From the NCBI GenBank assembly GCA_019637295.1, contig JAHBVX010000001.1:285501-349500 (forward strand): 64,000 bases of DNA, given 5' to 3'. Below, piece by piece: positions 411 through 18,123 of the stretch. A model generated the notes under the pieces. The model made no database searches. It saw only the letters and a list, made by a program, of their open reading frames with translations, and was not told where the DNA came from. The DNA is from Polyangiaceae bacterium (GTDB lineage Bacteria; Myxococcota_A; Polyangia; Polyangiales; Polyangiaceae). Position 1 is the stretch's first letter, and each line of letters opens with the position of its first letter. Position numbers and translations under genes: made by a program.

Positions 411-2075
411 ATGACACGTTCCCCGCGGCTCGCGCTGCTCTCCATCGATCCGGCGACGAACGACCCGTCGGTGGCGCACCTCGCGTTCAGCTACGGCATC
501 CGGCGTTTGGAGGCGTCCGTCCGCAGTTGCCCAACACTGCAGGACGTCGAGACGCAAGTGATCGACCTTCGTACGGCCGAGCCGGAAGCGTTCATGGCGG
601 AGCTCGAGGCCTTCCGTCCCACGATGATCGGAGCCTCGCTGTACGTCTGGTCGATGAAGCCGTTCTGGGAGATCGCCGCCCGCGTCAAAGCGTGGGACGC
701 CTCCATCCCGTTCATCGCCGGGGGCCCCAACGCTCGGCTCTCGGTCTTTCGTCTGCCGCACTATCGCCCGATGGCCTCGGTGCTGGACGCGATAGTGCAG
801 GGCGAAGGTGAGGGCGTGATTCGCGAGCTCGTCCAAGCGCATCGAGACGGCGACTGGAAGACCGCGCCCGGTCTGTTCGTCTCGGACGGCAAGAACTTCC
901 ACGGCACGGGGCCGGTCGAGCGTCCCGATCTGAACGCGTATCCGTCCCCCTACCACCTGTCGCTCGCGCCGCGAGGCACCACGGGTTACCTCGAGACCTT
1001 CCGCGGCTGTCCCATCAACTGCACCTTCTGCCAGTGGGGTGCCGAGCGCGCCGACCGCGTCTTCTCCGTGCCTTACCTCGTCCGTCAGCTCGAGGGGCTG
1101 CGGGATGCCGACGTGCCCCACGTCCTGTGCTGCGATGCGGGGTTGAACCTGAACCCGCGCGCCTTCCGCAACTTGCTCGCAGCCGAGGCGCAGGTCGGCT
1201 TCCTGCGGCAGGTTCCGTTCGACGGTCATCTGTATCCGACGTTCCTCACGGACGAACATCTCTCGCTGATCACGCAGTTCGGGCGCGCGGAGATGAAGAT
1301 CGGGATACAAAGCTTCAACGCCCAGGTGCTCCGCCGGCTCGGTCGTCCCTTCGACATCGAGCGGTTCGAGCGGGTTCTCCGCGTGCTGCGCGAACACATC
1401 CGCATCGATCTCGAGCTGATGATCGGGCTGCCCGGCGATACGCCGGAGTCGTTCCGAGAGACGTTCCACCGCGCCATCGAGCTAGGGGACACCGTGCGGG
1501 TCTTTCGCACGCTGGTGCTGCCGGACGCGCTGCTCGATCGCGCCGACCCCAGCATGCAGCTCGACTTCGACCCCGAGACCTTCCTGATGCGCTCGTGTGC
1601 GGGCTGGAGCGAGGAACAGCTCGCTCGCGAGCTCGATCACGTGGCCGAGGTAGCCCGCACCCACAGCAAGCCCTCGGTCACGGACACCTACGTCGAGTTC
1701 GCCACCTACCACAGCGACGTGCCGCACCGACCAGGCCAAGCGCGCATCGACCTTCCTGCGGAGCGTGGTGTGGTGCCCGTCGAGGTCGAGATCGTCGAGC
1801 GGCTACGGATGGCGGTGGATGCTGGGGTGCAGGGCTGGTCGCTGCGCGTCGTTCGCAACCAGGTGGATGGCGTCTATTTCGACCTCGACATGCCCGGCGG
1901 CCGCATCTCGCTGCACGCGTCCAGACGCCGAGATGGCGCACGGTACTTCGAAGATCGGGATGGGGTGGCCTACGTCCATCGTGGCCCGGTCGAGCGCGAG
2001 CAGACCGTTGCCTTGAGGCACGTCATCGATCTGGTGCACGGGGACGCTCGCCGGCTGGTGACCGAGGGTGGCTAG
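411..2075 (+). CDS. B12-binding-domain radical SAM protein, paralog 1 of 3
   Basis: This 554-residue protein has an N-terminal Rossmann-like region of the cobalamin-binding type (about residues 5-125, ending in an AGGPNAR segment). A radical SAM core follows with C200-x3-C204-x2-C207 (CPINCTFC) to bind the [4Fe-4S] cluster. The classical DxHxxG base-off motif is not visible, as in many class B enzymes. Such enzymes typically methylate or rearrange unactivated carbons, but the substrate here is unknown. I chose the ATG at 411 over an in-frame GTG at 390 because the protein then begins MTRS, like paralog 3. The stop overlaps the next start by 8 nt, so the two are translationally coupled. It is the first gene of the six-gene operon. 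Confidence 0.85.
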   Translation: MTRSPRLALLSIDPATNDPSVAHLAFSYGIRRLEASVRSCPTLQDVETQVIDLRTAEPEAFMAELEAFRPTMIGASLYVWSMKPFWEIAARVKAWDASIPFIAGGPNARLSVFRLPHYRPMASVLDAIVQGEGEGVIRELVQAHRDGDWKTAPGLFVSDGKNFHGTGPVERPDLNAYPSPYHLSLAPRGTTGYLETFRGCPINCTFCQWGAERADRVFSVPYLVRQLEGLRDADVPHVLCCDAGLNLNPRAFRNLLAAEAQVGFLRQVPFDGHLYPTFLTDEHLSLITQFGRAEMKIGIQSFNAQVLRRLGRPFDIERFERVLRVLREHIRIDLELMIGLPGDTPESFRETFHRAIELGDTVRVFRTLVLPDALLDRADPSMQLDFDPETFLMRSCAGWSEEQLARELDHVAEVARTHSKPSVTDTYVEFATYHSDVPHRPGQARIDLPAERGVVPVEVEIVERLRMAVDAGVQGWSLRVVRNQVDGVYFDLDMPGGRISLHASRRRDGARYFEDRDGVAYVHRGPVEREQTVALRHVIDLVHGDARRLVTEGG

Positions 2076-3732
2076 CGCACAGGCCTTCCGTTCTCCCCGC
2101 TTGGCGCTGGTCTCGATCGATCTCGAAGCCAGCTCGGACTGGGAAGATCCGATCGCCGATCTGGTGTCGTTCAACTACGGGCTCAAGAAGCTCGAGGCCT
2201 CCGTCCGAGCGTGCCCGGAGCTCGTGGACGTGGAGACCCGGGTCATCAGCCTGGGCACGAAGGAGCCGGAGGCCTTCCTCGCGGAGCTCGAGGCCTTTCG
2301 TCCGTCTATCGTCGCCCTGTCCCTCTACGTCTGGTCGATCGGACCGCTGCAGGAGCTCGCCGCGCGCATCAAGGCCTGGGATCCCGAGGTGCGACTCATC
2401 GTGGGCGGGCCGCACGCTCGGGCGTCGGTCTTCAGTCTGCGCCCCTACCAGGGGCTGGCGCGCTCGGTCGACGCCGCGGTCGCCGGCGAAGGGGAGCAGG
2501 TCCTGCGCGACATCGTGCGCCTGCATCAGGGGGAGGCGTGGCGTGAGCTGGCGGGTCTCTGGCTTCCGGGCCCGCTGGGCTGGCGCTCGACCGGTCCGCT
2601 GCCGCGTCCCGAGCTCGACGCCTACCCGTCGCCTTACCAGCTCGGGACGGCGCCCCACGGAGCGACGGGCTACCTGGAGACCTTTCGCGGCTGTCCCATC
2701 CACTGCAGCTTCTGCCAGTGGGGCGAGCAGGCGTCCGATCGCGTGCACTCCGCCGAGTACCTGAGGTCCCATTTGATCGGCATGCGCGAGCGTGCGGTGC
2801 CCAACGTGTTCGTCCTGGATGCCGCGTTCAACCTCAGCCCGCGGGCCTTTCGCGCGCTCGCGGAGGCCGAGCGCGAGGTCGGCGTCTTGCGCCACACTCG
2901 CGTCCACGGGCACCTGTACCCGACGCTGCTCACCGAGGAGCATGTCGAGCTGCTCGCGTCCTTCGGGCACGCGCAGCTGAGCGTGGGCGTTCAGAGCCTC
3001 GACCCCAAGGTCTTGGCCCGCCTCGGCCGGCCCTTCGACCTCGCGCGGTTTCACCGCGTGCTCGACGCCCTACGAACGCGCTTCGAGATCACGCTCGAAC
3101 TCATGCTCGGTCTGCCGGGTGACGACCCTGCTTCGTTCCGGGAGACGTTCGAGCGTACCGTTTCCCTCGCGGACAACGTGCGCGTATTCAAGACACTGGT
3201 GCTGCCGGACGCGTTGCTCGACCGCGCCGACGTCGGAATGAACATCGACTTCGACCCGGAGACCTTCCTGCTGCGGTCGTGCACCGGCTGGACCGCGGAC
3301 ACACTGCGGCGAGAGTTCGAGCATGTGGCGCGCGTGGCCGAGGAGAACCACAACGCCGTCGTCAAGGAGGCGTGGGTCGGCTTTCACACCTACGACGCGC
3401 GCCGCGACCCGAGCGCGTTCGGCGAGCGGGCCGTGCCCGACGGCGCCCTCGATCGCCTGCGTCACAGCCTCGGAATGCGCGCTCCGGGCTGGCACTTGCG
3501 CGCAATACGCGGCGGCGATCGCGGGCTCTGGTTCGAGCTCGAGACCCCCGGGGGCGAGGTCGTGCTCGAGGCCGTCGCGACGGTGGTCGGCAGGCCGCGC
3601 TTCGTGGAGCGCGAAGGGGTCAGCTACTCACATCGCGGAGCCCTGGACCGGAAGTATGCTCCGGGTCTCGTGAACGTCATCGACGTCGTGCATCACGACG
3701 CCGCCTCGCTGGTCGCGGTGCGCGATGCTTGA
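2068..3732 (+). CDS. B12-binding-domain radical SAM protein, paralog 2 of 3
   Basis: This 554-residue protein is a clear paralog of the genes at 411 and 6779, colinear along its full length. It has a Rossmann-type N-terminal half with a GGPHARASVF segment, then C209-x3-C213-x2-C216 (CPIHCSFC) followed by QWG. The GTG start at 2068 overlaps the upstream stop by 8 nt, and its own stop overlaps the next gene by 8 nt. The C-terminal third (about residues 400-554) holds a conserved HxYxxxxxR-rich domain shared by all three paralogs and probably specific to this family. Three full-length paralogs in one operon suggest successive modifications of one scaffold, or enzymes acting as partners. That is inference; the reaction is unknown. 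Confidence 0.85.
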   Translation: MASAQAFRSPRLALVSIDLEASSDWEDPIADLVSFNYGLKKLEASVRACPELVDVETRVISLGTKEPEAFLAELEAFRPSIVALSLYVWSIGPLQELAARIKAWDPEVRLIVGGPHARASVFSLRPYQGLARSVDAAVAGEGEQVLRDIVRLHQGEAWRELAGLWLPGPLGWRSTGPLPRPELDAYPSPYQLGTAPHGATGYLETFRGCPIHCSFCQWGEQASDRVHSAEYLRSHLIGMRERAVPNVFVLDAAFNLSPRAFRALAEAEREVGVLRHTRVHGHLYPTLLTEEHVELLASFGHAQLSVGVQSLDPKVLARLGRPFDLARFHRVLDALRTRFEITLELMLGLPGDDPASFRETFERTVSLADNVRVFKTLVLPDALLDRADVGMNIDFDPETFLLRSCTGWTADTLRREFEHVARVAEENHNAVVKEAWVGFHTYDARRDPSAFGERAVPDGALDRLRHSLGMRAPGWHLRAIRGGDRGLWFELETPGGEVVLEAVATVVGRPRFVEREGVSYSHRGALDRKYAPGLVNVIDVVHHDAASLVAVRDA

Positions 3733-4471
3733 GCACGCCCACCCCATCGCCGAGCGCGGCTTCGCGGTGTTCGAGCGGGCCTGGACGGACGCGGAGGTGG
3801 AGCGGCTCCGCGCTGCGATCGTCGCGAGCGTCGAGTCGCGCGACGGCCCGCCGCTGTGGGCGCGCGAGAACACCCCGCTCGACCCTCGCACCATCGTCAC
3901 CCCGACGGGCCTGACCTTCCCGTCGCTGCTGGAGGAGCACCCGGAGCTCTCGGACGTCGTGCTCAAGCCGAGCGTGGTCGAGTCGCTGCGTGGCGTCTTG
4001 GGCGAAGGCATGCGCCTCGAGTTGGTGGGCGCGGTGGTGAGCGACGCGTCCCGGCCGTTCTTCGCCTGGCACAGCCACATCGGTGGGGTCCCGGACAGCG
4101 AGTATCGTCGCACGGGCTGGCCACGGGTCACGAAGGTCGAGCGGGTGTTCACGCTGCTGTACCTGGACGACGTCGATGACCAGTCAGGCGTGCTGCTCGT
4201 TCGACCGCGCACTGTGGGTGAACCCACCCCTCCTCCGGAGGACCCGGAGCTGGAGGCATGGAGTGAGCAGGTCGAGCTCCGCTTGGCGCGCGGCTCCCTC
4301 GTCGCGCTCGAGCAGTGCACCTGGCACGCGGCCCGGGCGATGCGACGCGACGGGCTTCGCATCTTCGTCGGTTGTTACTTTCGAGCTGCAGGTCTGCCCG
4401 CGCCCTCCTGGAGCGACCCGACCCTCTCGGCGCACGCCCCCGCGAGCCCACTGCTCTCTTCGGTGTTGTGA
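3725..4471 (+). CDS. Phytanoyl-CoA dioxygenase (PhyH)-like protein with H-x-H metal motif
   Basis: This 248-residue protein matches the PhyH type of Fe(II)/2-oxoglutarate oxygenase in layout. A first metal motif (WHSH, His116 and His118) is followed 83 residues later by a distal His201 (CTWHAA), with Arg212 in the place that binds the 2-oxoglutarate carboxylate. The family normally has H-x-D or H-x-E, and here the acidic ligand position is His. The same change occurs in the other three domains of this operon, so it is a lineage feature and not an error. The ATG overlaps the upstream radical SAM gene by 8 nt and its TGA shares one base with the next ATG. A substrate cannot be inferred. Confidence 0.8.
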   Translation: MLEHAHPIAERGFAVFERAWTDAEVERLRAAIVASVESRDGPPLWARENTPLDPRTIVTPTGLTFPSLLEEHPELSDVVLKPSVVESLRGVLGEGMRLELVGAVVSDASRPFFAWHSHIGGVPDSEYRRTGWPRVTKVERVFTLLYLDDVDDQSGVLLVRPRTVGEPTPPPEDPELEAWSEQVELRLARGSLVALEQCTWHAARAMRRDGLRIFVGCYFRAAGLPAPSWSDPTLSAHAPASPLLSSVL

Positions 4472-6015
4472 TGGACCTCGACGACGCACGCAGTCGGTTC
4501 TTGGCAGACGGCTACCTCGTCTTCGAGCGCGCATTCCCAGACCAGGCGGTCGATACCCTGCGCGGGATCGTGTGCGAGCTGATGGCGGAGCTCGCGCCCA
4601 CCACGCTCTACTCCGAGCGTTCCCAGCCGGGAACCATCGTACCAACGCTGGCCGGGCTGACTTTCTATCGGCTCTTGGTCCAGCGGCCCGAGGTGGCGCC
4701 GCTGATGTTCGACGAGCAAGTCCTGCGAGTGATACGGGCGATCCTTGGTCCCGACGTGGTGCTCGAGGCAGCGGGCGCGATCGTCAGCGATCGCGAGCGT
4801 CCCTTCGTGGAGTGGCACACCCACCTCGACGGGGGCGGGGACGGTCGCTATCGACGTCTGGGTTGGCCTCGCATCGACGCCCCGAGACGACTGCTTTCAC
4901 TGCTGTACCTGGACGATCTTCGGGACGGCGGTGGTGCTCTTCGCGTGCACCCCAGGCGCGCCGGGGCGTCCACGGCGCCGCCGCACGATCTGGACTCGCG
5001 GGACTGGCCGGGGCAGGTCGAGCTCGCGCTGCCGCGAGGCTCCCTCGTGCTGCTCGACGAGTGCACCTGGCACGCGGCGCCGCCCACCTCCAGACCAGGG
5101 CTTCGCGTGCATCTCGGCAGCTACTATCGAGCCGGCTCTGCGCCGGCGTCCCAGTTCGCGGATCCGACCCTGGGTGACCTGCCAAAGGCGGCTCCGGCGC
5201 TGGCGTCCCTCATAGGACTAGACGCTGCTCCGAGCGGAGTCGGTCACGCGCGCGAGCTACGCGAGCGGGGCTACTGCGTGCTCGAGAACGCCTGGTCCCG
5301 CGAGGAGGTGACACGGCTACGAGAGGGCGTGGAAGAGAGCGTGCGGCGTGCCGCTCTCGGGCGGATGTGGTCGGAGGTGCCCGAGGGAGACGAGGTGATG
5401 GTGACGGCCAGCGGCGTGGTCATCACTCGCTTCTTCGCCCAGCACCCCGATCTCGCCGAGCTGCTCATCAAGCCCGAGGTCGTCGCGGTGCTCCGCGAGG
5501 CGTTCGACGGGCCGGTCGCGCTCGAGACCGCCGTCGCTGGCGTGAGCGACGCTTCGCGCCCCTTCGTTCGCTGGCACACGCACATCGGCGGGCTCGACGA
5601 TGGGGAGCACCGAGAGGGCCCGGCAGGACGCGGCGACAGCGCCAGCGTCCATTGGCCGCACCTGGAGCGCATCGAGCGAGTCGGTACGCTGCTGTATCTC
5701 GACGAGCTAGACGACGAGACCGGGCCGCTCCTCGTGTACCCGAGGGCCGTCGGCGATCCGACCGCCCCACCGCACCCGTCGACGGGTACGCACTGGGACG
5801 GGGAGGTAGCGCTCCGGGCGGCACCGGGCACACTCGTCATCCTGGAGCAGTGCACGTGGCACGCGGCCGAGCGCATGAGCCGGTCGGGACATCGCAGCTG
5901 GATTGGCTGCTACTATCGGCCGGCGGCGCTGCCCGCTCCTCGCTGGGTCGATGAGTCACTGCGCGCGCTCGCGTCCCGAGCCGCGGCGCTCGAGTCGGTT
6001 CTAGGAGAGCCATGA
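4471..6015 (+). CDS. Tandem fusion of two PhyH-like oxygenase domains
   Basis: This 514-residue protein consists of two consecutive PhyH-like domains. Domain 1 has His116-x-His118 (WHTHLDGG) and His201; domain 2 has His369-x-His371 (WHTHIGG) and His464. Each has an Arg 12-15 residues after the distal His and the same end motif around GxYYR. Each domain is about the length of the single-domain neighbours, so it is a fusion or tandem duplication with both metal sites kept. I chose the ATG at 4471 because it overlaps the previous stop (TGATG); the frame is open further upstream, but that stretch lies inside the previous gene. The next gene starts within its stop (ATGA). Paired domains could act on two positions of one substrate. 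Confidence 0.82.
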   Translation: MDLDDARSRFLADGYLVFERAFPDQAVDTLRGIVCELMAELAPTTLYSERSQPGTIVPTLAGLTFYRLLVQRPEVAPLMFDEQVLRVIRAILGPDVVLEAAGAIVSDRERPFVEWHTHLDGGGDGRYRRLGWPRIDAPRRLLSLLYLDDLRDGGGALRVHPRRAGASTAPPHDLDSRDWPGQVELALPRGSLVLLDECTWHAAPPTSRPGLRVHLGSYYRAGSAPASQFADPTLGDLPKAAPALASLIGLDAAPSGVGHARELRERGYCVLENAWSREEVTRLREGVEESVRRAALGRMWSEVPEGDEVMVTASGVVITRFFAQHPDLAELLIKPEVVAVLREAFDGPVALETAVAGVSDASRPFVRWHTHIGGLDDGEHREGPAGRGDSASVHWPHLERIERVGTLLYLDELDDETGPLLVYPRAVGDPTAPPHPSTGTHWDGEVALRAAPGTLVILEQCTWHAAERMSRSGHRSWIGCYYRPAALPAPRWVDESLRALASRAAALESVLGEP

Positions 6016-6782
6016 GCGCCGCCATCGATCCGGCGAAGCACGCGCGAGAGCTGCTCGAGCAAGGGTTCTCCGTGTTCGAGCGCGTGTGGTCCGACGCGGA
6101 GGTCGAGCGTTTGCGCCAGGCCATCGGCGACTGCCTCGCGGCGACGACCCCCCCGCGACTGTGGTCCGAGCGCGACGTTCGTCTCGGCGACTCGGTGGTC
6201 ATCAACTACACCGGTGTCGTGTTCTACCGGCTCCTGATGGAGCACCCGCAGATCACGGAGCTGCTCCTCAAGCCGAGCGTGGTGGAGTCGCTGCGTGGCG
6301 CGCTCGGACGGGACATGCGGCTGGAGATCGTGGGCGGGGTCGCGACGGACGAGACCCGCCCGTTCTTCCACTGGCACACGCACATCGGAGGCTTCGACGA
6401 CGGCAAGTATCAGAGCCACGGCGGCTGGCCCGCGATCACCAGCGCACAGCGGGTGACGACGTTGCTGTACCTCGATGACATCGACGACGACGGAGGACTC
6501 TTTCTGGTCTACCCTCGGGCCGTGGGCGACCCCACCGCGCCGCCGCAGGATCCGGCTGCCTGGCCCTGGCAGGGACAAGTGGAGATCCGGGTACCCAAGG
6601 GCTCGCTGGTGGCCATCGAGCAGTGCACCTGGCACACGGCGCTACCGATGCGCAGGCCGGGCCTGAGGATGTTCTTGGGTTGCTCGTTTCGGGCCGAGGG
6701 TGTGCCCCCTCCCGCGTGGGTCGATCCCGAGCTCACGGAGCTTGCCCGCCGCTGCCCGCTCATCGCGTCGGTGGTCGCGTGA
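6012..6782 (+). CDS. PhyH-like oxygenase with H-x-H metal motif
   Basis: This 256-residue protein is the fourth PhyH-like domain of the operon. It has His122-x-His124 (WHTHIGG), distal His208 (CTWHTA) and a downstream Arg in GLRMF at the usual 2-oxoglutarate-binding spacing. It is most similar by eye to the second domain of the preceding fusion and to the 3725 protein. The ATG overlaps the preceding TGA (ATGA), and its own TGA overlaps the GTG of the third radical SAM gene (GTGA). Either oxygenase or non-oxygenase activity is possible because the acidic ligand is replaced; the fold assignment is much safer than the chemistry. Confidence 0.82.
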   Translation: MSAAIDPAKHARELLEQGFSVFERVWSDAEVERLRQAIGDCLAATTPPRLWSERDVRLGDSVVINYTGVVFYRLLMEHPQITELLLKPSVVESLRGALGRDMRLEIVGGVATDETRPFFHWHTHIGGFDDGKYQSHGGWPAITSAQRVTTLLYLDDIDDDGGLFLVYPRAVGDPTAPPQDPAAWPWQGQVEIRVPKGSLVAIEQCTWHTALPMRRPGLRMFLGCSFRAEGVPPPAWVDPELTELARRCPLIASVVA

Positions 6783-8440
6783 CGCGCTCGAGACGCGTGG
6801 CCTTCGTGTCGATCGATCCCACGTGGGAGGATCCGAGCGGCGAGTTCGTGCCCTTCACCTACGCCGTGCGCAAGCTCGAGGCTTCACTTCGCAGCGCCCC
6901 GGATCTCGCAGACGTGGAGACGCGGATCATCGATTTGCAGACCGCAGATCCCGAGGCCTTCTTGGAAGAGATCCGCAGCTTCCGGCCAACCCTGATCGCG
7001 GCGTCCCTCTACTTGTGGTCCATCGGTGCCTTTCAGGAGCTCGCCCGCCGGGTGCGAGCGTGGGATCCGAGCGTCCGCATCGTGGCGGGCGGGCCCCACG
7101 CGCGCGCCTCCGTGTTCAACCTGCCGAACTACCGGGACCTCCGCGCGCTGCTCGACGCCGCGGTGACCGGCGAGGGAGAGGAGATCTTGCGCGACATAGT
7201 GCGCACGCATCTCGAGAACGGTTGGACGAAGCTGCCGGGGCTCACCGTGCCGTCGCCTCTTGGTTGGAGGAGCACTGGCCCACTCGAACGACCGGTGCTC
7301 GACGCCTACCCCTCGCCCTACCACATCGACACCGCGCCACCGCGAACGACGGGCTACATCGAGACCTTCCGAGGTTGCCCCATTCACTGCTCCTTCTGCC
7401 AGTGGGGGGAGCAGCGAGCCGATCGCGTGCACTCGGCGGAGTACCTCGCAGCGCACCTCGAGGGCCTGCGGCGAGCCGAGGTCCCCAATGTGTTCTTCAT
7501 CGACGCGGCGTTCAACCTGAGCCCCCGCGCGTTCCGCGCGCTCGTCGAGGCGGAAGCGCAGGTGAAGTTCCTCGCGCAGACGACGATCCACGGCCACATC
7601 TACCCCACTTTTCTCAAGGACGAGCACCTCGAGCTGCTCACCTCCGCCGGAAAGGCGCAGGTCAGCATCGGCATCCAGAGCTTCAGCCCCTCTGTGCTCC
7701 ATCGCTTGGGCCGGCCCTTCGATCTCGAGCGCTTCGAGCGAGTGCTCGCCGCCATGCGCGGGCGCATCCCCATCGATCTGGAGCTGATGCTCGGGCTGCC
7801 CGGCGACGATCCGCGAGCGTTTCACGACACCTTCGAGCGCGCCGTGGAGCTCGCCGACACCATCCGAGTGTTCAAGACCCTCGTGCTCCCCGACGCGCTG
7901 CTCGATCGTGCGGACGCGTCGCTGGCCATCGACTTCGATCCCGAGACGTTCCTGCTGCGCTCCTGCGCGGGCTGGCGCGCGGAGGACATCGACCGGGAGT
8001 TCGAGCACGTACAGCGGGTCGCCCTCGCGCATGATCGAGTCACGCTGGGCGAGACCTGGGTCGGCTTCGGCGTGCGTCGCGACAGCCCGGTACAGGCGCC
8101 ACGTCGGGAGGGGATCGAGACGATGCTCGAGCGAGGTGTGCCTGCAGTGCCGATCGAGGTCATCGAGCAGCTGCGCCGCGCCGTCGCGGCGTCCGCCGAG
8201 GGCTGGCGCTTGCGCACGGTTCGACACCACGTCACGGGGCTCGAGTTCGATCTGGACGCGCCCAGCGGCCGGGTCCTCCTGGAGGCGTTCCCGCTGCGGC
8301 CGGGCGCGAAGTGGTTCGCCGCTCGCGACGGAGTTGCTTACTCCTACCGCGGCGAGGTCGGCCCGCACCACTTCGACGCGCTCCAGGGCGTCGTGGACCT
8401 GGTGCACGGGCAGAGCGTGTCGCTCATCGCCGGGGGCTGA
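6779..8440 (+). CDS. B12-binding-domain radical SAM protein, paralog 3 of 3
   Basis: This 553-residue protein is the last gene of the operon and a full-length paralog of the genes at 411 and 2068. It has a Rossmann-type N-terminal region with GGPHARASVF, then C200-x3-C204-x2-C207 (CPIHCSFC) followed by QWGEQ, and the shared C-terminal domain. The GTG at 6779 is preferred because it overlaps the previous stop and gives MTRSRR, matching paralog 1. The frame stays open upstream, but only as a shadow of the oxygenase gene. A perfect 10-bp hairpin begins at the base after the stop codon, which marks the operon end. Confidence 0.85.
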   Translation: MTRSRRVAFVSIDPTWEDPSGEFVPFTYAVRKLEASLRSAPDLADVETRIIDLQTADPEAFLEEIRSFRPTLIAASLYLWSIGAFQELARRVRAWDPSVRIVAGGPHARASVFNLPNYRDLRALLDAAVTGEGEEILRDIVRTHLENGWTKLPGLTVPSPLGWRSTGPLERPVLDAYPSPYHIDTAPPRTTGYIETFRGCPIHCSFCQWGEQRADRVHSAEYLAAHLEGLRRAEVPNVFFIDAAFNLSPRAFRALVEAEAQVKFLAQTTIHGHIYPTFLKDEHLELLTSAGKAQVSIGIQSFSPSVLHRLGRPFDLERFERVLAAMRGRIPIDLELMLGLPGDDPRAFHDTFERAVELADTIRVFKTLVLPDALLDRADASLAIDFDPETFLLRSCAGWRAEDIDREFEHVQRVALAHDRVTLGETWVGFGVRRDSPVQAPRREGIETMLERGVPAVPIEVIEQLRRAVAASAEGWRLRTVRHHVTGLEFDLDAPSGRVLLEAFPLRPGAKWFAARDGVAYSYRGEVGPHHFDALQGVVDLVHGQSVSLIAGG

Positions 8441-8466
8441 AGTTGCGCAATCGGGCTTGCGCAACT
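8441..8466 (+). terminator. Perfect 10-bp inverted repeat directly after the radical SAM operon
   Basis: AGTTGCGCAA at 8441-8450 pairs perfectly with TTGCGCAACT at 8457-8466 across a 6-nt loop. It starts at the base after the stop codon of the last operon gene. There is no long U-tract, so it may act as a Rho-assisted terminator or as a 3' end stabiliser. A partial extra TTGCGCA follows, which could allow an alternative fold. Confidence 0.6.
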
Positions 8467-8572
8467 TGCGCACCTCGCTCGCCACACCTGAGCAAATTCC
8501 GCGACATGTGGCCCTGACCTCGCGAGCACGCATCCTGCAAGGATGGCCGGCGTGCCCATCTCGGAGGTCCTC

Positions 8573-10057
8573 GTGAAACGCCCCTTGCCCCTGGTCGCGC
8601 TGCCGTTGTTGCTCCTGTTGCTGTTGTGCTCGTCCTGCACCGGGGATCCGGCGGCCGAGCTCGGCGGGCACGGAGACTGCGAGGGAGAGGTGGCGGCGAC
8701 GGTCAGCCAAGGCTTGAGCACGATCAACTGCAGCGAGTCGACCGCGACCGGGTACCAGAATGGCAATCCGTTCACCATCACCGTCGTGAAGGTGGACGGC
8801 AAGCCCGTCGAGAAGGCGACGGCGAACGCGTACTACGTCATGGCCCAGGCCGCCGCCGCCGCAGGCGTGCACATCCAGGTCATCAGCGGCTTTCGCACCA
8901 TGTCGGAGCAGCAGTACCTGTACAACTGCTACCAGTGCGGCTGCTGCAACAACGGCAACCTGGCTGCCAAACCTGGCTACAGCAACCACCAGAGCGGGCA
9001 CGCGCTGGATCTGAACACCTCGAGCGGCGGCGTGTTGAACTGGCTCAACAACAACGGAGCCAAGTACGGCTTCAAGCGCACGGTACCGAGTGAAGCCTGG
9101 CACTGGGAGTGGTGGGGCGGGGGACCGGGAGGCGGACCCTGCGGCGGCGGCTCGGCGGGCGGCAACTGCGTCGAGAACTGCGGAAAGTTCGGCTGCGGGT
9201 GCGTGAACGGCGAGTGCAGCGGCGGCTTCTGCCCAGGCACGGGGTGCAGCGCGACGCAGACCAGCAACTGTGCGGCGTATGGCTGTGGCTGCGAGACCGG
9301 CAAGTGCAGCGGCGGGTTCTGCGAGGGTACCGGTTGCACGGCCAAGCAGACCAACGACTGCGCGGCGTACGGCTGCGGCTGCGTGGACGGCAAGTGCAGC
9401 GGTGGGTTCTGCGAGGGCACCGGTTGCACGGCGAAGCAGACCAACGACTGTGCCGCGTTCGGCTGCAACTGCGTGGACGGCAAGTGCAACGGTGGGTTCT
9501 GCGAGGGTACCGGTTGCACGGCCAAGGAGGTCACGGACTGTGGCAAGTTCGGCTGCGGCTGCGTAGACCACCAGTGCAGCGGCGGGATCGGCTGCGGCAG
9601 CAAGGGCAATGGCTGCACGGCCAAGGAGATCACGGACTGCGGCAAGTTTGGCTGCGACTGCTACGACCACCAGTGCACCGGCGGCGCTTGCTCGCCGCCG
9701 AGCGGCAGCGGAGGCGCGGGCAGCGGCAGCGCGGGCAGCGGCAGCGGAGGCGCGAGCAGCGGAGGCGCGGGCAGCGGCAGCGGAGGAGCGAGCAGCGGCA
9801 GCGGCGGAGCGAGCGGCGCGGCTGGCGCGGGAGCTGCGGGTGCCGATCCGACGGGCAGCGGTGGAGGCGGGGCGGGAGCTACGAGCGGTGCGCCCGGCAA
9901 GGCGCCGGCGCGTGGCGCGGCCCTCCCCGGCGAGGACTCGGGCTGCGCGTGTCGTGCGAGCGGCACCTCGCGCGCGCGCTCGCCCTGGGCGCTCGCCGCG
10001 CTCGCGCTCGCTTGGAGCCTGCGCAGGCGCCGGAGGGCTGCCCACTCCGTCGGATAG
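8573..10057 (+). CDS. Secreted M15 (VanY-like) peptidase with six Cys-rich repeats and MYXO-CTERM tail
   Basis: This 494-residue exported protein starts at a GTG preceded by GGAGGT with 4-nt spacing; an in-frame ATG at 8543 lacks such a site. A signal peptide with a lipobox-like Cys is followed by a peptidase M15/VanY domain. The SGFR motif, the zinc motif SNHQSGHALD (His139, Asp146) and EAWHW (Glu174, His177) are all present, so it should cleave D-Ala-containing peptidoglycan stems. Six Cys-rich repeats of about 30 residues (core CGCxxGxCSGGFC) follow at about residues 190-375, then a Ser/Gly linker. The tail is a Cys-x-Cys, a hydrophobic segment and an Arg cluster, the MYXO-CTERM layout that is cleaved and anchored by a myxosortase. 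The product is probably a cell-surface wall hydrolase. Confidence 0.85.
   Translation: MKRPLPLVALPLLLLLLLCSSCTGDPAAELGGHGDCEGEVAATVSQGLSTINCSESTATGYQNGNPFTITVVKVDGKPVEKATANAYYVMAQAAAAAGVHIQVISGFRTMSEQQYLYNCYQCGCCNNGNLAAKPGYSNHQSGHALDLNTSSGGVLNWLNNNGAKYGFKRTVPSEAWHWEWWGGGPGGGPCGGGSAGGNCVENCGKFGCGCVNGECSGGFCPGTGCSATQTSNCAAYGCGCETGKCSGGFCEGTGCTAKQTNDCAAYGCGCVDGKCSGGFCEGTGCTAKQTNDCAAFGCNCVDGKCNGGFCEGTGCTAKEVTDCGKFGCGCVDHQCSGGIGCGSKGNGCTAKEITDCGKFGCDCYDHQCTGGACSPPSGSGGAGSGSAGSGSGGASSGGAGSGSGGASSGSGGASGAAGAGAAGADPTGSGGGGAGATSGAPGKAPARGAALPGEDSGCACRASGTSRARSPWALAALALAWSLRRRRRAAHSVG
9174..9690 (+). repeat. In-gene tandem repeats encoding six Cys-rich modules
   Basis: Units of about 90 bp repeat within the M15 peptidase gene. 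The middle copies are nearly identical at the DNA level (for example around 9295-9385, 9385-9475 and 9475-9535), while the first and last are more diverged. Each encodes a 30-residue module with five or six Cys. The pattern suggests recent unit expansion by recombination. Confidence 0.75.
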
Positions 10058-10072
10058 GAGAGTCTCACCTCG

Positions 10073-11401
10073 ATGTCACCGCGCCGCACCGACACCCTGC
10101 TGCTCTTGACCTGCGCCATGATCGGCGTCGCCTGCGGCTCGGAGCCTGGCGGGGTGGCGAGCAACCGCGACCTGGACTCGGATGGCGCGGTGGGTCTACC
10201 CCACGACGGCCAGACACCGAGCCACGACGCGCCAACCCTGGGCGACGCTGGCGTCAGTGTCGACGCCGCCGCGGAGCCCGACGCGGTGGCCACTGCCCCC
10301 GACGCGGGTCCGGGCCCTGATGCGGGACAGCCGGATCCGAACTACACGGTGGACGGCTGCTTCCGCTGGTTCGGCGCCTCGAAGAGCGGCGCGCTGCAGG
10401 CCGCGCTCGACCAGCATGCGTGCGTGGAGGTTCAGGCCGGGACCTTCGTGCTCAGCGGTCCCGTGTACGCCAAACCGGGCAAGACGCTGCGTGGCGTCAG
10501 CGCCGCCGCGTCAGTCCTGGTCGCGAGCGCGTCGTGGAACTTCGGCTGTTGCGACGCGATGATCAGCGACACGTTGCCCGGCAACCCGGCGCAGAGCCCT
10601 TTCACGGTGCAGCGCCTCACGCTCGATGGCGCCGGTGTGGCGACGTACAACGTCTGTTGCCGTGGCTACACCGTCGAAGACACGATCCTGAAGCGCTCAC
10701 GCTGTTCGGCGATTGGTGCCGTCGGTGCGGGCGTGGTCGCACGCAAGAACCAGATGCTCGACTCCGCCAAGCCTACGAGTGTGCCAGGCAAGGGCCAGGT
10801 CACCTGCGCGACTGGGAACTTCGGTGGGGTCCTCGAGGGAGCCGCCATCTACTCCGAAGGCAAGGCCAGCAACTACGGGACGCTGATCGAGGACAACGTG
10901 ATCACGGGCTCCTTCGGTCCGGCCCTGGACATCAACGGCGCGTGGGGCGGGACGTTTCGCAAGAACGTCGTGTCGGGTAACACGAGTTGGGCGGCGGTGA
11001 GTCTCTACGGCGCCAGCCAGTGGCTCATCGAAGACAACCACATCAGCCATCCCGCCCATCAGCCGCCTCAGCCGTATCACCCGTACTGCGCCACGGGACC
11101 GGCGGGCGGCAACTCGGCCGGGATCTTCTTGTGTCAGGACACGGACAAGGACAGTCTGGTCACGAACGACAACGTGATTCGCAACAACAAGTCATCGTTC
11201 TACGGCATCTTGTCGGTCGGTGCGGACGAGATCCAGCCGTACCTTGCGCCGCGCAACAATACCTTTCAGAACAACGACGTGTTCGGCTCCCACGTCGGGT
11301 GTGCGGACGACTTCAAGGTGGGTCAGTGGTTCAGCGACAAGAACACCTGGACGGGCAACAACTGCGCCGGCTCCCCCAACACGGGGCCAATCACCTTCTG
11401 A
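10073..11401 (+). CDS. Secreted lipoprotein with right-handed beta-helix repeats
   Basis: This 442-residue protein has an N-terminal signal peptide ending near GVAC (Cys21) and then a Pro/Asp/Ala-rich linker. A large domain with regularly spaced Asn-Asn and IEDN-type turns follows (IEDNVITG, IEDNHISH, NDNVIRNN, NTFQNNDVF). That spacing is typical of pectate-lyase-like right-handed beta-helix proteins that bind or cleave polysaccharide. No catalytic triad is obvious, so a binding role is equally possible. The ATG at 10073 lies shortly after a GGAGAG element. The stop is adjacent to the next coding region, so the three genes from here to 12638 may form a unit. Confidence 0.7.
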   Translation: MSPRRTDTLLLLTCAMIGVACGSEPGGVASNRDLDSDGAVGLPHDGQTPSHDAPTLGDAGVSVDAAAEPDAVATAPDAGPGPDAGQPDPNYTVDGCFRWFGASKSGALQAALDQHACVEVQAGTFVLSGPVYAKPGKTLRGVSAAASVLVASASWNFGCCDAMISDTLPGNPAQSPFTVQRLTLDGAGVATYNVCCRGYTVEDTILKRSRCSAIGAVGAGVVARKNQMLDSAKPTSVPGKGQVTCATGNFGGVLEGAAIYSEGKASNYGTLIEDNVITGSFGPALDINGAWGGTFRKNVVSGNTSWAAVSLYGASQWLIEDNHISHPAHQPPQPYHPYCATGPAGGNSAGIFLCQDTDKDSLVTNDNVIRNNKSSFYGILSVGADEIQPYLAPRNNTFQNNDVFGSHVGCADDFKVGQWFSDKNTWTGNNCAGSPNTGPITF

Positions 11402-12021
11402 CGCGCGCCTGCGTCGTGCTGACGCTGGCGCTCACGGCTTGTACCTCCGGCGGGTTCGGCCTGGTGCCGAGCTACCCCTACGTGGAGGATCGCTCCCTCG
11501 CGCTGGTGGATGAGACGTTGACCCTGCGGGTGCGCGAGGACCGCACGGTCCGTGTAGAAGCGCTCTTCGAGTTCGTGGCGGTCGGAAGCCCGAAGTCGCG
11601 GGTCGCGACCTTCCCCATCGGCGGGCCCCGCGGGACTGCGCACGGCTTCCTGGCGGAGCTCGCCGGAGCCGAGCCCGAGCGGCTTCCCGTCGCGCTGGGC
11701 ACGGGCGGGGCGCTTCCCTTCGGCGACCCCGTGGAGTCCTGGGACATCTGGCTCGATGGCGACGCGCTCGCGCGTCACGATGGCCGACTTCGGGTGACCT
11801 ACGAGCAGCGCGGCTCCGGGCGGTTCAGCTACGTCCTGAAGTCCGGCGCCTACTGGTGCGGCCCGATCGCGCGGCTCGAGGTCGTGATCGACGATCCGCA
11901 CCGCAACTTGCTGGCCGTCATCGTGGAGGGCGAGCGAGCCGAGGTTCGCGGCCGCTCTCGCCTGCGCCATGTATTGCGCGACGTGGAGCCGCGGTCTGGG
12001 GTAGAGTTGCTGTTCGAGTGA
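11398..12021 (+). CDS. Hypothetical lipoprotein (start codon uncertain)
   Basis: The protein has about 207 residues. The frame carries a convincing lipoprotein signal (TRACVVLTLALTAC) immediately after the previous stop. No ATG, GTG or TTG sits in front of it at the right place. A CTG at 11398 overlapping the TGA gives a normal signal peptide, while the first conventional start, GTG at 11416, leaves only eight residues before the lipobox Cys. A GTG near 11322 inside the previous gene is a third option. The mature part is beta-rich with no known domain visible. The gene ends in GTGA, coupling it to the next one. Confidence 0.55.
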   Translation: MTRACVVLTLALTACTSGGFGLVPSYPYVEDRSLALVDETLTLRVREDRTVRVEALFEFVAVGSPKSRVATFPIGGPRGTAHGFLAELAGAEPERLPVALGTGGALPFGDPVESWDIWLDGDALARHDGRLRVTYEQRGSGRFSYVLKSGAYWCGPIARLEVVIDDPHRNLLAVIVEGERAEVRGRSRLRHVLRDVEPRSGVELLFE

Positions 12022-12638
12022 AAGTTCGAACCCTGGGTGTGTTGGCTGCGGCTCTCTGGCTGCCGGCCCCTGCGCTTGCAGACGCGGGCCCGAAGATTGA
12101 CGACTCGCTGTGGCTACCCATGGGGTTGAACCTCGGCTACTCGCTGAACCCGGATCCGGCTCCGAACGGCTTGCTGATCGGGCCGGAGATCAGCTTCGTC
12201 TACCTCGATCGAACCGGGTACTGGGGTGGTGTGTACACGGATCTGCTGCACGACACGGGCCCCGAGCAGTGGCGCTTCAGCGGGGGGCTAGAAGGGGGTG
12301 TGGCGATCTTCGGGATGGACGTCGGCTACGTCGGCGCCAGCGGGGACGAGTGGCAGCATGGCCTGCGTGGACGCCTGCTCATCTCGCTGGCTGCGATTCA
12401 CCTGTACGGCGGGGTTGGCACCCTCTTCCAACAGCCCGACGCGGTCACCTACGGCGAGCTCGGCGTGCTGCTCAAGTTCCCGCTCCAGCTGTGGCAGACC
12501 GAGTCGCGCCGGCCCTGGATGAATCGACCCCCGCCGGACCCACCTCCTCCACCGCCACCCCCCGATCAAGGCGCGCCCTACGCTCCACCGCCGCCGTACG
12601 CGCAGCCACCGTCGTACGCCGAGCCACCACCGAACTGA
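12018..12638 (+). CDS. Secreted hypothetical protein with proline-rich tail
   Basis: This 206-residue protein starts at a GTG overlapping the upstream stop (GTGA) and has a clear signal peptide with an ALA-DA cleavage site near residue 22. The middle is Gly/aromatic-rich with alternating beta-strand character, such as the GVYTDLL and LEGGVAIFGMDVGYVGAS segments. That looks like a small outer-membrane barrel. The last 45 residues are Pro-rich (PPPDPPPPPP then PPYA repeats), like periplasm- or wall-spanning tails in myxobacterial envelope proteins. No enzymatic motif is visible. Confidence 0.65.
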   Translation: MKVRTLGVLAAALWLPAPALADAGPKIDDSLWLPMGLNLGYSLNPDPAPNGLLIGPEISFVYLDRTGYWGGVYTDLLHDTGPEQWRFSGGLEGGVAIFGMDVGYVGASGDEWQHGLRGRLLISLAAIHLYGGVGTLFQQPDAVTYGELGVLLKFPLQLWQTESRRPWMNRPPPDPPPPPPPPDQGAPYAPPPPYAQPPSYAEPPPN

Positions 12639-12657: not shown

Positions 12658-13935
12658 GTGTCTCCGGATGCCGACGCGCTCTCCGCTCTCGAGCCGACGC
12701 TGGCGCGCGCCAGGGCCGCGATCCGGTCGCTGGGGCAGGACGCCGACGAGAGCCCCGCCTGGCGGCGGGACCTCGAAGTTTTGTTCGGCGCGAGCGCGCT
12801 CCGCTGGCTGCTCGACGTGCGGCGTCGGCCTGGTAGCGGAGGAAGCCACGAGCTCGAGGTCACGCTGGGCAGGGAGGCGGAGTCCACCAGCTTGCGGCTC
12901 GTTCCGTTCGGACACCACGAGCGACCCTTCGCGGAGACCAAGCGCCTCTCGCTGGTGCAGCGCGATGGAGGGGAGTTGTCCGACGCGTTCGGTCGCGAAC
13001 TCGAGAGCATTCGCCACCGAGTGCAGGCCTCGGAGGCGACTGGAGTGGCCGACGCGTTGCTCGCGCGCCTCGACGCGCGGACGCTTCCGGATCCGGACGA
13101 GGTGCGCGAGCTCGCGTCGCTGCCGGACCTCGAGGATCCCGAGCAGCGCGCCGTGAGCGTGATGCTGCCCGAGTACGCTCGCCACTACGGCGAGCGACCC
13201 CGCATCCTGGAGCGTCGCTTCGCGGAGTTCACGGTCGTCTCTGTCGCCTTCTCCGACGCACACCTGTCAGACGATGGCTCGTTCTTCACGCTGCCACCTT
13301 CGCTGCGTGTGGACGCACCTTCTCTCTTGTACCTGCGGCGGTTGGGGTTCGGCTGGAACGAGCGTGGCGTGGTGCGCCAGGTGCCGCTGCCCTCTCACCT
13401 CGAGCGCGTGCTCCGAGGCTCCGACCTCGGCGGGTTCGGGATGCGCCCTCGCATCGTCTCGCTGCCAACCATGGCTGCGTTCGATCGGCGTTGGCTCGCG
13501 TCGAGCACGCACGCCGTGTTGCCCATCAATCTTGGCTCGCGCGCCTTCTACCTTCGTCACGCGTGGCGCTACGTGCCGCGGCTCACGCGTCGTCCCCGGT
13601 CGGTGGGCTGGCTGGCCAGTCACTTCACGATCTTGGCGCATGACCTGGGCGTGCACGCCTTGCCCGTCCACCTACTGCCGAGCTCCGTGTTGCTCGAGCT
13701 GGGTCGTCGCATCCGCGCGTCCTGGGCGAAGACCCGCTGGCGTGCGCTGCGGCCGCCTCGCCCGCTGCTCTCGTTCTACGACACGGATCTGCATCTGTAC
13801 GCCCGGGCGGCGTGGTCCGAGGTAGAGAGCGTGAGCGAGCTGCCCGCCGCCTTGTGCCAACCGTCGCGTTTGGCCCAGCTCACCGCGCAGCTCGAGTCAC
13901 GGCTGCGAGAGGCCGCCGCGGCCCCGGCGACTTAG
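12658..13935 (+). CDS. Protein of unknown function, homolog of the 21476-22672 product
   Basis: This 425-residue protein starts at GTG 12658, with no signal peptide or membrane segments. I do not recognise the family, but the second half aligns by eye with the minus-strand protein at 21476-22672. Both have a LGFGW or LGFGF segment, then a stretch of about 30 residues ending in an aromatic/Arg-rich motif, then HDLGVHALPVH or HDMATHGMAYH and a helix of the form LLxELxRRIR. Conserved His and Asp in the HDxxxHxxxxH segment could be catalytic or metal-binding. The gene is convergent with the TPR gene, overlapping it by 4 nt. The homolog sits at the other edge of the same radical SAM neighbourhood. 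Confidence 0.6.
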   Translation: MSPDADALSALEPTLARARAAIRSLGQDADESPAWRRDLEVLFGASALRWLLDVRRRPGSGGSHELEVTLGREAESTSLRLVPFGHHERPFAETKRLSLVQRDGGELSDAFGRELESIRHRVQASEATGVADALLARLDARTLPDPDEVRELASLPDLEDPEQRAVSVMLPEYARHYGERPRILERRFAEFTVVSVAFSDAHLSDDGSFFTLPPSLRVDAPSLLYLRRLGFGWNERGVVRQVPLPSHLERVLRGSDLGGFGMRPRIVSLPTMAAFDRRWLASSTHAVLPINLGSRAFYLRHAWRYVPRLTRRPRSVGWLASHFTILAHDLGVHALPVHLLPSSVLLELGRRIRASWAKTRWRALRPPRPLLSFYDTDLHLYARAAWSEVESVSELPAALCQPSRLAQLTAQLESRLREAAAAPAT

Positions 13936-15893: not shown

Positions 15894-17053
15894 CGGGGCC
15901 CTCGCAACTCGGGGGGGAGCTCGCCCGCCCACACCCCGACGCCCCGCGCTGCCAGGGCCTGCGCGAGGGCCGCGCGCCGCTCTGCCTGCCAACTCGACGC
16001 TCGCATGTGCTCGAAGCGAGGGTCGTCGAAGTCGCGCTCGGCGCCCTGCACGCCGTGCAGCACGTCGATGCTCACTGAATCGACGACCTCTGCCAGCGCG
16101 CTCGCCAGCGCCTCCACGTCGTCCGAGAGCACCGGCTGTAGGACGGCGAAGGTACGTACGCCGCGCGATCTCAGCAGCGCGAGCGTGGCCAGGCGCTCGG
16201 GGATGCTCGCAGCGCGGGGCTCGAAGTGACGGCGCACCGCGTCGTCCTCGGTGGGCACGGAGAACCCGACCCACGCATTGGCCATGCTCGCGAGCAGCTC
16301 CATGTCATCCACCAGGGCTGCCGAGCGGGTGAGGACCAGCACCGGACGTCCGCGCGCCTCGCTGCGCACGACCTCGAGACAGCCGCGAGTGACGCGATGA
16401 CGTCGCTCCACGGCCTGGTAGGGATCGCTCACGATGGGACAGAACTTGATGGGGTGCAGCGGAGCCGTGCTCAGCTCTGCCGCCAGGATCTCGGCTGCGT
16501 TGATCCGCACGTCCACGTACGAGCCCCATGGGACCTCCGGCAGGCGCGCGAGCGTACGCGAGACCGCGACGTGCGAGTGGGCGTAGCAGAAGCGACAGCC
16601 GATCAAGCAGCCGACGTACGGGCTGACGCTGAAGTAGCGAGCGTCCGGCGTGCCCGCGGGCTCGAGCAAACGCGCGACCCGCACCTCGCGGACCTTCGCG
16701 GAAGACTCGGCATCAGCGCCGTGGGGAGCGGCGTCGCGGAGCGCGCGGAGCGCGGTCTCCTCGTTCGGAGCGATGACGTCGACCAGCGCGCGGCAGAGTG
16801 ACACGCCCAGCGCGGCGTCCACCGGCGCTGACGTGCTGGAGCGATACGACAGCGCGAGTCGGGAGCTCTGCGCCGCGCTCGGGCGCGTGGGCTCCCGGGG
16901 CGCGATCTCGACGTGGACTTCGTGCTCGCCAACCTGCAGCGTCAGGCGCGGACCGAGCTCCGTAGAGATGCCGAGCAGGCGGACCCCGGGCGTGATCTCC
17001 TCCCCGAGCCGGGCGGGCGCGACCAACGCGAGCAGGAAGTCGTCCAGCGTCAT
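15890..17053 (-). CDS. SPL-like radical SAM protein
   Basis: This 387-residue protein has a radical SAM motif at C149-x3-C153-x2-C156 (CLIGCRFC) followed by YAHSHV. It also has the KFCPIVSDPYQAVE and VLVLTRS segments typical of the spore-photoproduct-lyase-like family (Rv2578c type). The N-terminal 120 residues form an extra domain not seen in the short family members. The ATG at 17053 overlaps the upstream TGA (ATGA), and its own stop overlaps the TPR gene (GTGA). Co-translation with an unknown protein and a TPR scaffold suggests one complex or pathway. The substrate is unknown; DNA-lesion repair is a possibility by family but is not specifically supported. Confidence 0.75.
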   Translation of the reverse strand: MTLDDFLLALVAPARLGEEITPGVRLLGISTELGPRLTLQVGEHEVHVEIAPREPTRPSAAQSSRLALSYRSSTSAPVDAALGVSLCRALVDVIAPNEETALRALRDAAPHGADAESSAKVREVRVARLLEPAGTPDARYFSVSPYVGCLIGCRFCYAHSHVAVSRTLARLPEVPWGSYVDVRINAAEILAAELSTAPLHPIKFCPIVSDPYQAVERRHRVTRGCLEVVRSEARGRPVLVLTRSAALVDDMELLASMANAWVGFSVPTEDDAVRRHFEPRAASIPERLATLALLRSRGVRTFAVLQPVLSDDVEALASALAEVVDSVSIDVLHGVQGAERDFDDPRFEHMRASSWQAERRAALAQALAARGVGVWAGELPPELRGPR

Positions 17054-18123
17054 GGCTCGTCCTCGACCCGCCGCCAGGGCGCGGGAGGCGACGACCAGTC
17101 CCGGGGCTGGCCGGTGCGCTCGGCGTCGGCCACGCGTTGCCGCGCCCAAGCGCCCAGGGTCGTGAGCGCTTGGGCATCCGAGTGACCTGCTCGAGCGCGA
17201 AAGGACAACGCATGGCGGTCGCTGCGAGTGAACGCGCGCGGTGACAGTTCGTTGGGCTCGACGTGCAGACCGACTTCAGCGTCGTCCGTCGCGAAGATGG
17301 CCACCGGCCGGAGCTCGACCGGCGGGGCAGCGCCTACGGGCTTGGCGTAGACCGTGACCGAGCCGTCCGGGCTCCAGCCGATCTGCCGCACGGCGCCAGG
17401 CGCGAAGGGCATGGCGCGGGACAGCTCGCCGAAGGCGAGTCCCGTGAGGTCCTGCAGTAGCTCGTCGGCGCGCTCTTGACCGTCGGGAGGCACCGCGACG
17501 AACACGGCGCGCGTCGTCGTCGTCGCGCCGAACACGTCCGAGGAGCGCACCCAGCCAGCGGCCGGCGCGAAGCCGGCGAGCGCCTCCGGCACGCCCGACA
17601 CCCCGAGCGCCGCGAAGCTGCGCCGCTGATGGTAGAGCTTGCGAACGACCCGCGCGCGCTCGACGTTGAGCCCGATCACCTCCGCTTGCCCGAGCCCGGC
17701 CGAATCGAGCGCCGTGAGCAGCTCCTCACGCAGCGACTGCGCAGCGTCCGACGCGTTGGCGTAGAGCTTGAGCGCCGGGCTGTCGCCTCCGACATCCCAG
17801 CCCACGATCAACGGCAGCCTGAGGCGCTCGACCGCCTGCAGCAGCCGCTCGCACTCGGGCGCCCAGCGCAGCCCCAGCGCGCTCGCCACCCGCTCGGCCG
17901 CCGTGCGAGTCGAGCGCTCCAGCATCATGCGCCCGGCCCGCACCCCGCCACTCGGCGTCCAGCGCACGGACGCCTCGGGCGAGGCCGAGTCCGCGATGAG
18001 CTCCACCAGCTCGTCCGCCAGACGCCGCGCGGCCTCGGGTGGGAGCGCGGGAAGCAGCGCTCGGCAGAGGTCCTGTGCGGGGATCACCCGGCACAGCGTA
18101 TCGCGTGGCGTCGAGCGCCGCAC
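17050..18123 (-). CDS. Hypothetical protein in a radical SAM unit
   Basis: This 357-residue cytoplasmic protein is unrecognised. Strand-rich segments of the form hxxGWDxxGxxPxLKLYAN and QIGWSPDGSVTVYAKP alternate with helices. This loosely recalls the repeated strand pattern of ABBA prenyltransferase folds, a weak resemblance I would not annotate from. The start is either ATG 18123 or GTG 18087. It is the first gene of the minus-strand unit with the SPL-like radical SAM and TPR genes, and it is divergent from the 18182 gene across a 58-bp gap that must hold both promoters. Confidence 0.55.
   Translation of the reverse strand: MRRSTPRDTLCRVIPAQDLCRALLPALPPEAARRLADELVELIADSASPEASVRWTPSGGVRAGRMMLERSTRTAAERVASALGLRWAPECERLLQAVERLRLPLIVGWDVGGDSPALKLYANASDAAQSLREELLTALDSAGLGQAEVIGLNVERARVVRKLYHQRRSFAALGVSGVPEALAGFAPAAGWVRSSDVFGATTTTRAVFVAVPPDGQERADELLQDLTGLAFGELSRAMPFAPGAVRQIGWSPDGSVTVYAKPVGAAPPVELRPVAIFATDDAEVGLHVEPNELSPRAFTRSDRHALSFRARAGHSDAQALTTLGAWARQRVADAERTGQPRDWSSPPAPWRRVEDEP

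Follow-up and report, generated by a model that had tools for sequence, protein, structure and literature searches.

An operon of B12-binding radical SAM and PhyH-like enzymes in a Polyangiaceae bacterium is the amplified part of a larger gene cluster

Introduction

In carbapenem (thienamycin-type) clusters, several B12 radical S-adenosylmethionine (SAM) enzymes and 2-oxoglutarate (2OG)-type oxygenases act on one small molecule. B12 radical SAM enzymes also methylate lipids and proteins, and, like MoaA-like maturases and prenyltransferase (PT)-barrel enzymes, they occur in pathways to ribosomally synthesised and post-translationally modified peptides (RiPPs). Here we analyse a 64,000-nucleotide stretch of a Polyangiaceae bacterium (assembly GCA_019637295.1, contig JAHBVX010000001.1, positions 285,501 to 349,500; hereafter the window), in which six overlapping genes at 411-8440 encode three B12-binding radical SAM proteins (RS1-RS3) and four PhyH-like domains. 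We find that this operon is an amplified part of a larger cluster. At a slightly better than even chance, the whole is a biosynthetic cluster of about 27 kb for a prenylated aromatic small molecule, with the operon as its tailoring part.

Each enzyme type has described relatives, none of them close. KedN5-type and TIGR04013 B12 radical SAM proteins share the B12-binding and Radical_SAM domains and the CxxxCxxC motif with RS1-RS3 and are their best NCBIfam matches, but RS1-RS3 score 73-89 bits where the cut-offs are 700 and 251 and are therefore not members of these families; they also carry an extra C-terminal domain, here called AD. No NCBIfam B12 radical SAM model reaches its cut-off among the best 25 of 30-32 matches per RS protein. 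The PhyH 2OG oxygenases SnoK, SptF, EctD and PHYH turn up as weak profile matches in the PDB (SnoK the strongest, E 5.9e-7) and share the conserved distal His and Arg, whereas their HxD motif is replaced in most members here. PT-barrel aromatic prenyltransferases (AmbP1, DMATS, CymD, PagF) resemble the predicted fold of a protein encoded downstream of the operon, but that protein is only 7-14% identical to them and the genome has no Trp_DMAT match. Carbapenem clusters may be similar in their enzyme types, but the asparagine-synthetase-like gene upstream of the window was matched in no other locus searched. Within the open-access library and terms searched, we found no description of the cluster or of the six-gene order, nor that order in a characterised pathway.

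Results

The operon has the following features.

RS1, 411-2075, forward strand: B12-binding radical SAM protein (PF04055 52.8 bits, PF02310 35.1 bits), motif CPINCTFC, C-terminal AD at about residues 455-552
RS2, 2068-3732, forward strand: B12-binding radical SAM protein (PF04055 59.5 bits, PF02310 42.9 bits), motif CPIHCSFC, C-terminal AD
PhyH1, 3725-4471, forward strand: PhyH-like protein (PF05721 22.1 bits against a cut-off of 22), motif WHSHIGG ... TWH ... R
PhyH2, 4471-6015, forward strand: two fused PhyH domains, half 1 with WHTHLDG (assigned by 41% identity to PhyH1), half 2 with WHTHIGG (PF05721 48.9 bits)
PhyH3, 6012-6782, forward strand: PhyH-like protein (PF05721 22.9 bits), motif WHTHIGG
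RS3, 6779-8440, forward strand: B12-binding radical SAM protein (PF04055 61.4 bits, PF02310 49.3 bits), motif CPIHCSFC, C-terminal AD
Hairpin 3' of RS3, 8440-8467, forward strand: perfect 11-bp stem, 6-nt loop, no T run

The initial annotation had described six coupled genes encoding three radical SAM paralogs and four PhyH-like domains, and this description holds. All six genes lie on the forward strand and overlap at every junction, by 8, 8, 1, 4 and 4 nt in order; the 1-nt overlap of PhyH1 and PhyH2 becomes 4 nt if PhyH2 starts at the GTG at 4468. Radical_SAM and B12-binding domains exceed their Pfam cut-offs in all three RS proteins, each of which has the CxxxCxxC motif; a motif search found DxHxxG in none of them. 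Their paralogy is evident, RS2 and RS3 being 53% and 56% identical to RS1, and by identity RS3 is the closest of the three to the homologs in genomes G206 and G144 (genomes and loci are numbered G and L throughout). Identity to PhyH1 is 41, 46 and 54% for the remaining three PhyH domains. PhyH2 half 2 passes the PhyH cut-off and PhyH1 and PhyH3 barely do so, while PhyH2 half 1 on its own falls below it, with 2OG-FeII_Oxy_3 (25.7 against 27) as its sole Pfam match. A hairpin said to close the operon does exist, but it is not a clear intrinsic terminator, since it lacks a T run and is only moderately more stable than shuffled sequences (z -2.0; 5 of 200 shuffles equally good). As had been noted, Pfam reveals no nonribosomal peptide synthetase (NRPS) or polyketide synthase (PKS) gene and no transporter among the six genes. 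PHROGs gave zero matches for the five operon proteins scanned (RS2 was not among them).

The six genes had been presented as the system itself. The genes are real, but they are not the whole, and linked genes lie on both sides, downstream as follows.

12658-13935, forward strand: unknown protein, conserved cluster member, no Pfam match; homologs in the cluster loci of G206, G144, G211 and L003
15890-17053, reverse strand: third kind of radical SAM protein (SplB-like by eye; PF04055 36.7 bits), motif CLIGCRFC, N-terminal AD; homologs in G206, G211 and G289
17050-18123, reverse strand: unknown protein, C-terminal AD; in G206 and G314 its homologs sit between the genes for the B12 enzyme and the PT-fold protein
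18182-19075, forward strand: PT-barrel (aromatic prenyltransferase-fold) protein by predicted fold, single copy in the genome
19075-20424, forward strand: RS4, MoaA-like radical SAM protein (PF04055 69 bits), C-terminal AD
21476-22672, reverse strand: paralog of the 12658 protein, no Pfam match; placed in one family with it by a profile search seeded with both, and both match the same G206, G144 and L003 proteins

The clearest view of the linkage comes from G206, a genome of another family, in which eight contiguous homologs run in the order PhyH, RS4, PT-fold, 17050, B12 radical SAM, PhyH, 15890 and 12658. The first seven are on the same strand and five of their six junctions overlap, with starts taken from a home-made gene caller. 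Because homologs of the G206 downstream genes lie at 12.7-22.7 kb, the window holds both halves of the cluster. Linked genes are found ahead of the window and, on the downstream side, as far as about 22.7 kb.

Paralogs scattered without linkage, which would speak against a single system, were not seen. RS1-RS3 are the sole proteins of this B12 radical SAM kind in the genome: with 34 of 34 candidates scored, the next match shares 32% identity with RS3 (E 2.7e-17). The genome matches a profile built from the four PhyH domains in six places, all within 11.5 kb at C1:280762-292279 (60 of 60 candidates scored); two of them are tandem genes upstream of the window (L001:10217-11029 and 11026-12114), both scoring above the PhyH Pfam cut-off. 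Across the phylum, an RS3 homolog at E<=1e-45 is present in at least 24 of 377 genomes, counting our own, a lower bound with three candidates scored per genome; at that depth none of the other genomes has three RS3-type copies, and G355 has two partial matches on two contigs. In a tree, RS1-RS3 cluster with the proteins of G206, G144 and L003 (support 92/98, under the tool's starred level), which suggests that they arose by duplication within this lineage. The nearest named relatives are Sandaracinaceae (L003) and Enhygromyxa (L004).

Association with PhyH is conserved as well. A PhyH gene of the same type lies within three genes of the RS3 homolog in 10 of the 11 other genomes with closer RS3 homologs (47-64% identity; ten from the 377-genome search plus L003), and the sole miss is G355, where the RS3-type gene splits between two contigs. 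Around more distant B12 homologs, a PhyH of this type was found within three genes at none of the loci examined. Four proteins (G004, G157, G049 and G059) unite B12-binding, Radical_SAM and PhyH domains in a single chain. A protein of G432 combines an RS4-type radical SAM with PhyH and an amidohydrolase, and in G289 and G337 (B12 enzyme 37-38% identical) an HQD-type PhyH gene directly follows the B12 enzyme gene. The suggestion that the two enzyme types work together is thereby borne out: joint action on one molecule is well supported, most strongly by the fusions and further by the proximity in 10 of 11 genomes.

The downstream half includes the 18182-19075 product of 297 amino acids (aa), for which an AlphaFold2 model from 21 sequences reached a pLDDT of 92.7. 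Foldseek returned ten matches at E<=0.001, all of them prenyltransferases (best AmbP1, E 9.5e-7), and with VIA prenyltransferases filled 50 of the 50 rows shown (Z 12.7, root-mean-square deviation 4.2 over 245 residues); from this confident model the protein is predicted to have the PT-barrel fold. Its family has conserved K, E and Y positions. The gene has a single match in its own genome, and at least 25 of the 240 class genomes, our own among them, encode the protein (10 candidates per genome scored), as do alphaproteobacterial and planctomycete loci. An RS4-type radical SAM gene directly adjoins it in 30 of 34 copies, against an RS4-type share of 65 in 1058 genes of the loci compared. In three of the misses (L007, L015, L018) the PT-fold gene is the first or last called gene of its locus, and in L010 one gene lies between. 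When the PT-fold profile was run against PDB sequences at E up to 1, the 33 chains returned, by name envelope-glycoprotein pieces or designed relatives and one Gag-Pol chain, were taken as chance matches; the two printed are short. In G144, a Trp_DMAT prenyltransferase gene (G144:C7:152328-153095, L175) lies about 38 kb from the B12 enzyme gene.

AD, a domain of about 100 residues, occurs in both halves: C-terminally in RS1-RS3, RS4, one upstream PhyH and the 17050 protein, and N-terminally in the 15890 radical SAM. When each AD family was removed from the profile in turn and its recovery compared with the best of 593 unrelated genes, the B12, RS4, 15890, PhyH and second B12 radical SAM types were all recovered at better E than that best, with 17, 6, 4, 1 and 1 (of 5) proteins, respectively, at E<0.01. 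This is a coherence check and not a blind one, as the rows came from an iterated search; the 17050 family, absent from the rows, scores down to 1e-8. Profile-profile comparison of six families gave at least 50% for 7 of 15 pairs (RSB-PhyH 98%, 17050-15890 93%) and under 30% for the other 8 (RS4-RSB 4%); by the same method AD was not established in the 12658/21476 family, at 1.4% or less with any AD family. In our own genome, profile A5 finds its seven training copies, one match at E 0.25 and the gene at C1:708237 (E 3.5e-6), a glycosyltransferase by eye without a Pfam match, which was held out here but served as a training row in the 240-genome search. The AD model (pLDDT 95.3) is alpha-beta5-alpha, without a clear solved relative in Foldseek (best E 0.044) or VIA (best Z 6.8), and no Pfam family matches the domain.

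We considered whether AD is confined to the cluster and rejected this, as it is present in at least 57 of 240 class genomes (20 candidates per genome scored). Of 34 AD carriers in 21 loci, 27 were recognised by the B12, RS4 or 15890 radical SAM profile; among the rest, two have a Pfam Radical_SAM match and one matches a U32 peptidase family. Thus AD is largely a radical-SAM-associated domain, not a hallmark of the cluster. Of the eleven AD matches in G377 (L154-L158), several fall on radical SAM proteins and one on a protein of the U32 family. A 496-aa protein with N-terminal AD and no Pfam match lies far from the cluster at L093:10183-11673.

The initial annotation took PhyH enzymes to be hydroxylases. 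Hydroxylation cannot be assumed here, because at least three of the four operon PhyH domains lack the canonical HxD. The family pattern is W-[H/E]-x-H-x-[G/D]-G ... [T]WH ... R. All 27 sequences compared have the second His. The [H/E] position holds His in 24 of them and Glu in the other 3, and two residues beyond the invariant His stands either Gly (21 sequences) or Asp (6). The six domains of our own genome read HSHIG, HTHLD, HTHIG, HTHIG, HSHVG and HSHIG, so that HxD is absent in either register from five of six; PhyH2 half 1 has HLD. The distal His is present in 27 of 27 sequences and an Arg, by analogy probably the 2OG-binding one, in 26 of 27.

Which register corresponds to HxD depends on the method. 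In all five MAFFT modes, 8 of 12 HQD relatives place their His on the invariant His and 4 go with H-x-H, and in four of the five modes the eight place their Asp on the G/D position. The program hhalign favours H-x-H, while the seven HMMER alignments printed comprise one H-x-G, four H-x-H and two split. We lean towards H-x-[G/D], since every member has its His and the Asp survives in six; most members would then be halogenase-like and a minority hydroxylase-like. In the alternative register the metal site may be all-His (3-His). A working natural case of that kind would be a surprise, because the D-to-H change in prolyl 4-hydroxylase (D414H) left no detectable activity (PMC2767507).

Several neighbouring genes deserve mention. 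The 12658-13935 and 21476-22672 proteins have, by eye, a conserved HDxxxHxxxxH-like stretch and may be a new metalloenzyme. After the operon, 8543-10057 encodes a protein that looks secreted and has Cys-rich repeats as well as a stretch resembling VanY by eye. Upstream of the window, L001:4559-7735 encodes the asparagine-synthetase-like protein, which starts MAAIAGFVG with no Cys at position 2, followed by genes for an unknown 248-aa protein and a cupin; these three were left out of the cluster because, among the loci searched, iterated profiles matched only our own. Across the whole genome Radical_SAM has 64 matches, some of them densely grouped at C20:96-104 kb and C21:78-99 kb. Four alphaproteobacterial loci (L013, L021, L019, L010) combine B12 radical SAM genes (in tandem in the first three) with RS4-type and PT-fold genes and, in varying sets, Trp_halogenase, SapC, WelO5-like (HFD) or methyltransferase genes; a literature search on this cluster type found no description. 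The WelO5-like genes beside the alphaproteobacterial homologs were rejected as proof of halogenation, the three examined carrying HFD, a hydroxylase-type motif.

Discussion

We propose that the PT-barrel protein would bind an aromatic starter, possibly derived from Trp, and probably also prenylates it, as its fold and family would suggest. The MoaA-like and SplB-like radical SAM proteins would then carry out further radical steps. Each B12 radical SAM would, by analogy with its family, alkylate (most likely methylate) or rearrange an unactivated carbon, and the PhyH partners would oxidise or halogenate carbons of the same intermediate. AD may tether the enzymes to a common substrate, carrier or partner, and the presence of three B12 enzymes and six PhyH domains suggests action at more than one position or in consecutive steps. 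A scan of 10 proteins chosen from related loci revealed Rieske, methyltransferase, Trp_halogenase or WelO5-like types, which fit small-molecule tailoring. Indiacens are not supported as the product, since they need no B12 alkylation and G172, a probable Sandaracinus, has a separate Trp_DMAT gene elsewhere. They are described as prenyl indoles of S. amylolyticus (PMC9306752).

A number of observations weigh against this proposal. The PT-barrel assignment is by predicted fold, with Foldseek TM-scores of 0.39-0.49 for the ten best matches at the low identities given above, and no Pfam family matches the protein. In the fusions, the B12 part shares only 34-36% identity with RS3 and the PhyH part has HxD (as HQD); all four come from one genus and so probably represent one event. 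Between 8.5 and 12.6 kb lie several genes without evident link, and in G244, of the same genus as our bacterium, the PT-fold gene and RS4-type genes are present, but the threshold used gave no B12 enzyme. AD is not tied to the pathway, since in G443 and G485 its sole match is on a 15890-type protein. What the sequences show directly are the genes, their conserved linkage, the fusions, the shared domain and the predicted prenyltransferase fold; the small-molecule product, its aromatic and prenylated character, the reactions and the part played by AD are inferred.

The most serious competitor, which we consider rather unlikely, is a RiPP pathway in which the radical SAM, PhyH and PT-fold proteins modify a short genome-encoded peptide recognised via AD. 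There is family precedent for such enzymes, the peptide prenyltransferases PagF and PatF are among the VIA structure matches, and the best NCBIfam matches of RS4 are the HxsC4 and HxsC maturase models, at scores far below their cut-offs. A precursor of an unrecognised kind may be encoded, but a BLASTP comparison of small open reading frames over 25 loci (22-160 aa, outside longer genes and at most 9 kb from core genes, Methylobacterium L016-L022 pairs left out) yielded five pairs, all weak, and in no case were both loci core Polyangia ones. The lack of a Pfam family for AD and the existence in other phyla of AD-free B12 and RS4-type enzymes also speak against a RiPP pathway.

Less likely still, the target of the enzymes would be a core lipid, a quinone or a macromolecule (protein, tRNA or cofactor) and not a secondary metabolite. 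The absence of NRPS/PKS and transporter genes from the operon would suit this reading, as would the methylation of lipids and proteins by B12 radical SAM enzymes (HpnR and MCR-methylase models match far below cut-off), but the patchy distribution of the RS3 homologs and of the PT-fold protein does not. That the operon and the downstream set are two independent things is least likely of all: the genes without evident link between the halves, and the halves being on different contigs or at least about 25 kb apart in G366, G351 and G182, speak for it, but the halves share one locus in G206, G144, L003, G314, G051, G172 and G211, and AD occurs in both.

The cluster predicts an undescribed metabolite class in Polyangia, with a single-copy version of the cluster in a probably culturable genus (Sandaracinus, inferred), and the attachment of AD to several enzyme types gives it a testable role. 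It is possible, though we hold it doubtful, that the locus defines both an undescribed natural-product pathway class, of radical SAM, PhyH and PT-barrel enzymes organised by AD, and a PhyH lineage that has lost its carboxylate to become a new HxG halogenase or HxH...H oxygenase family. The PhyH proteins without the HxD carboxylate are natural ones, and the HxG case, if true, would be a new halogenase family.

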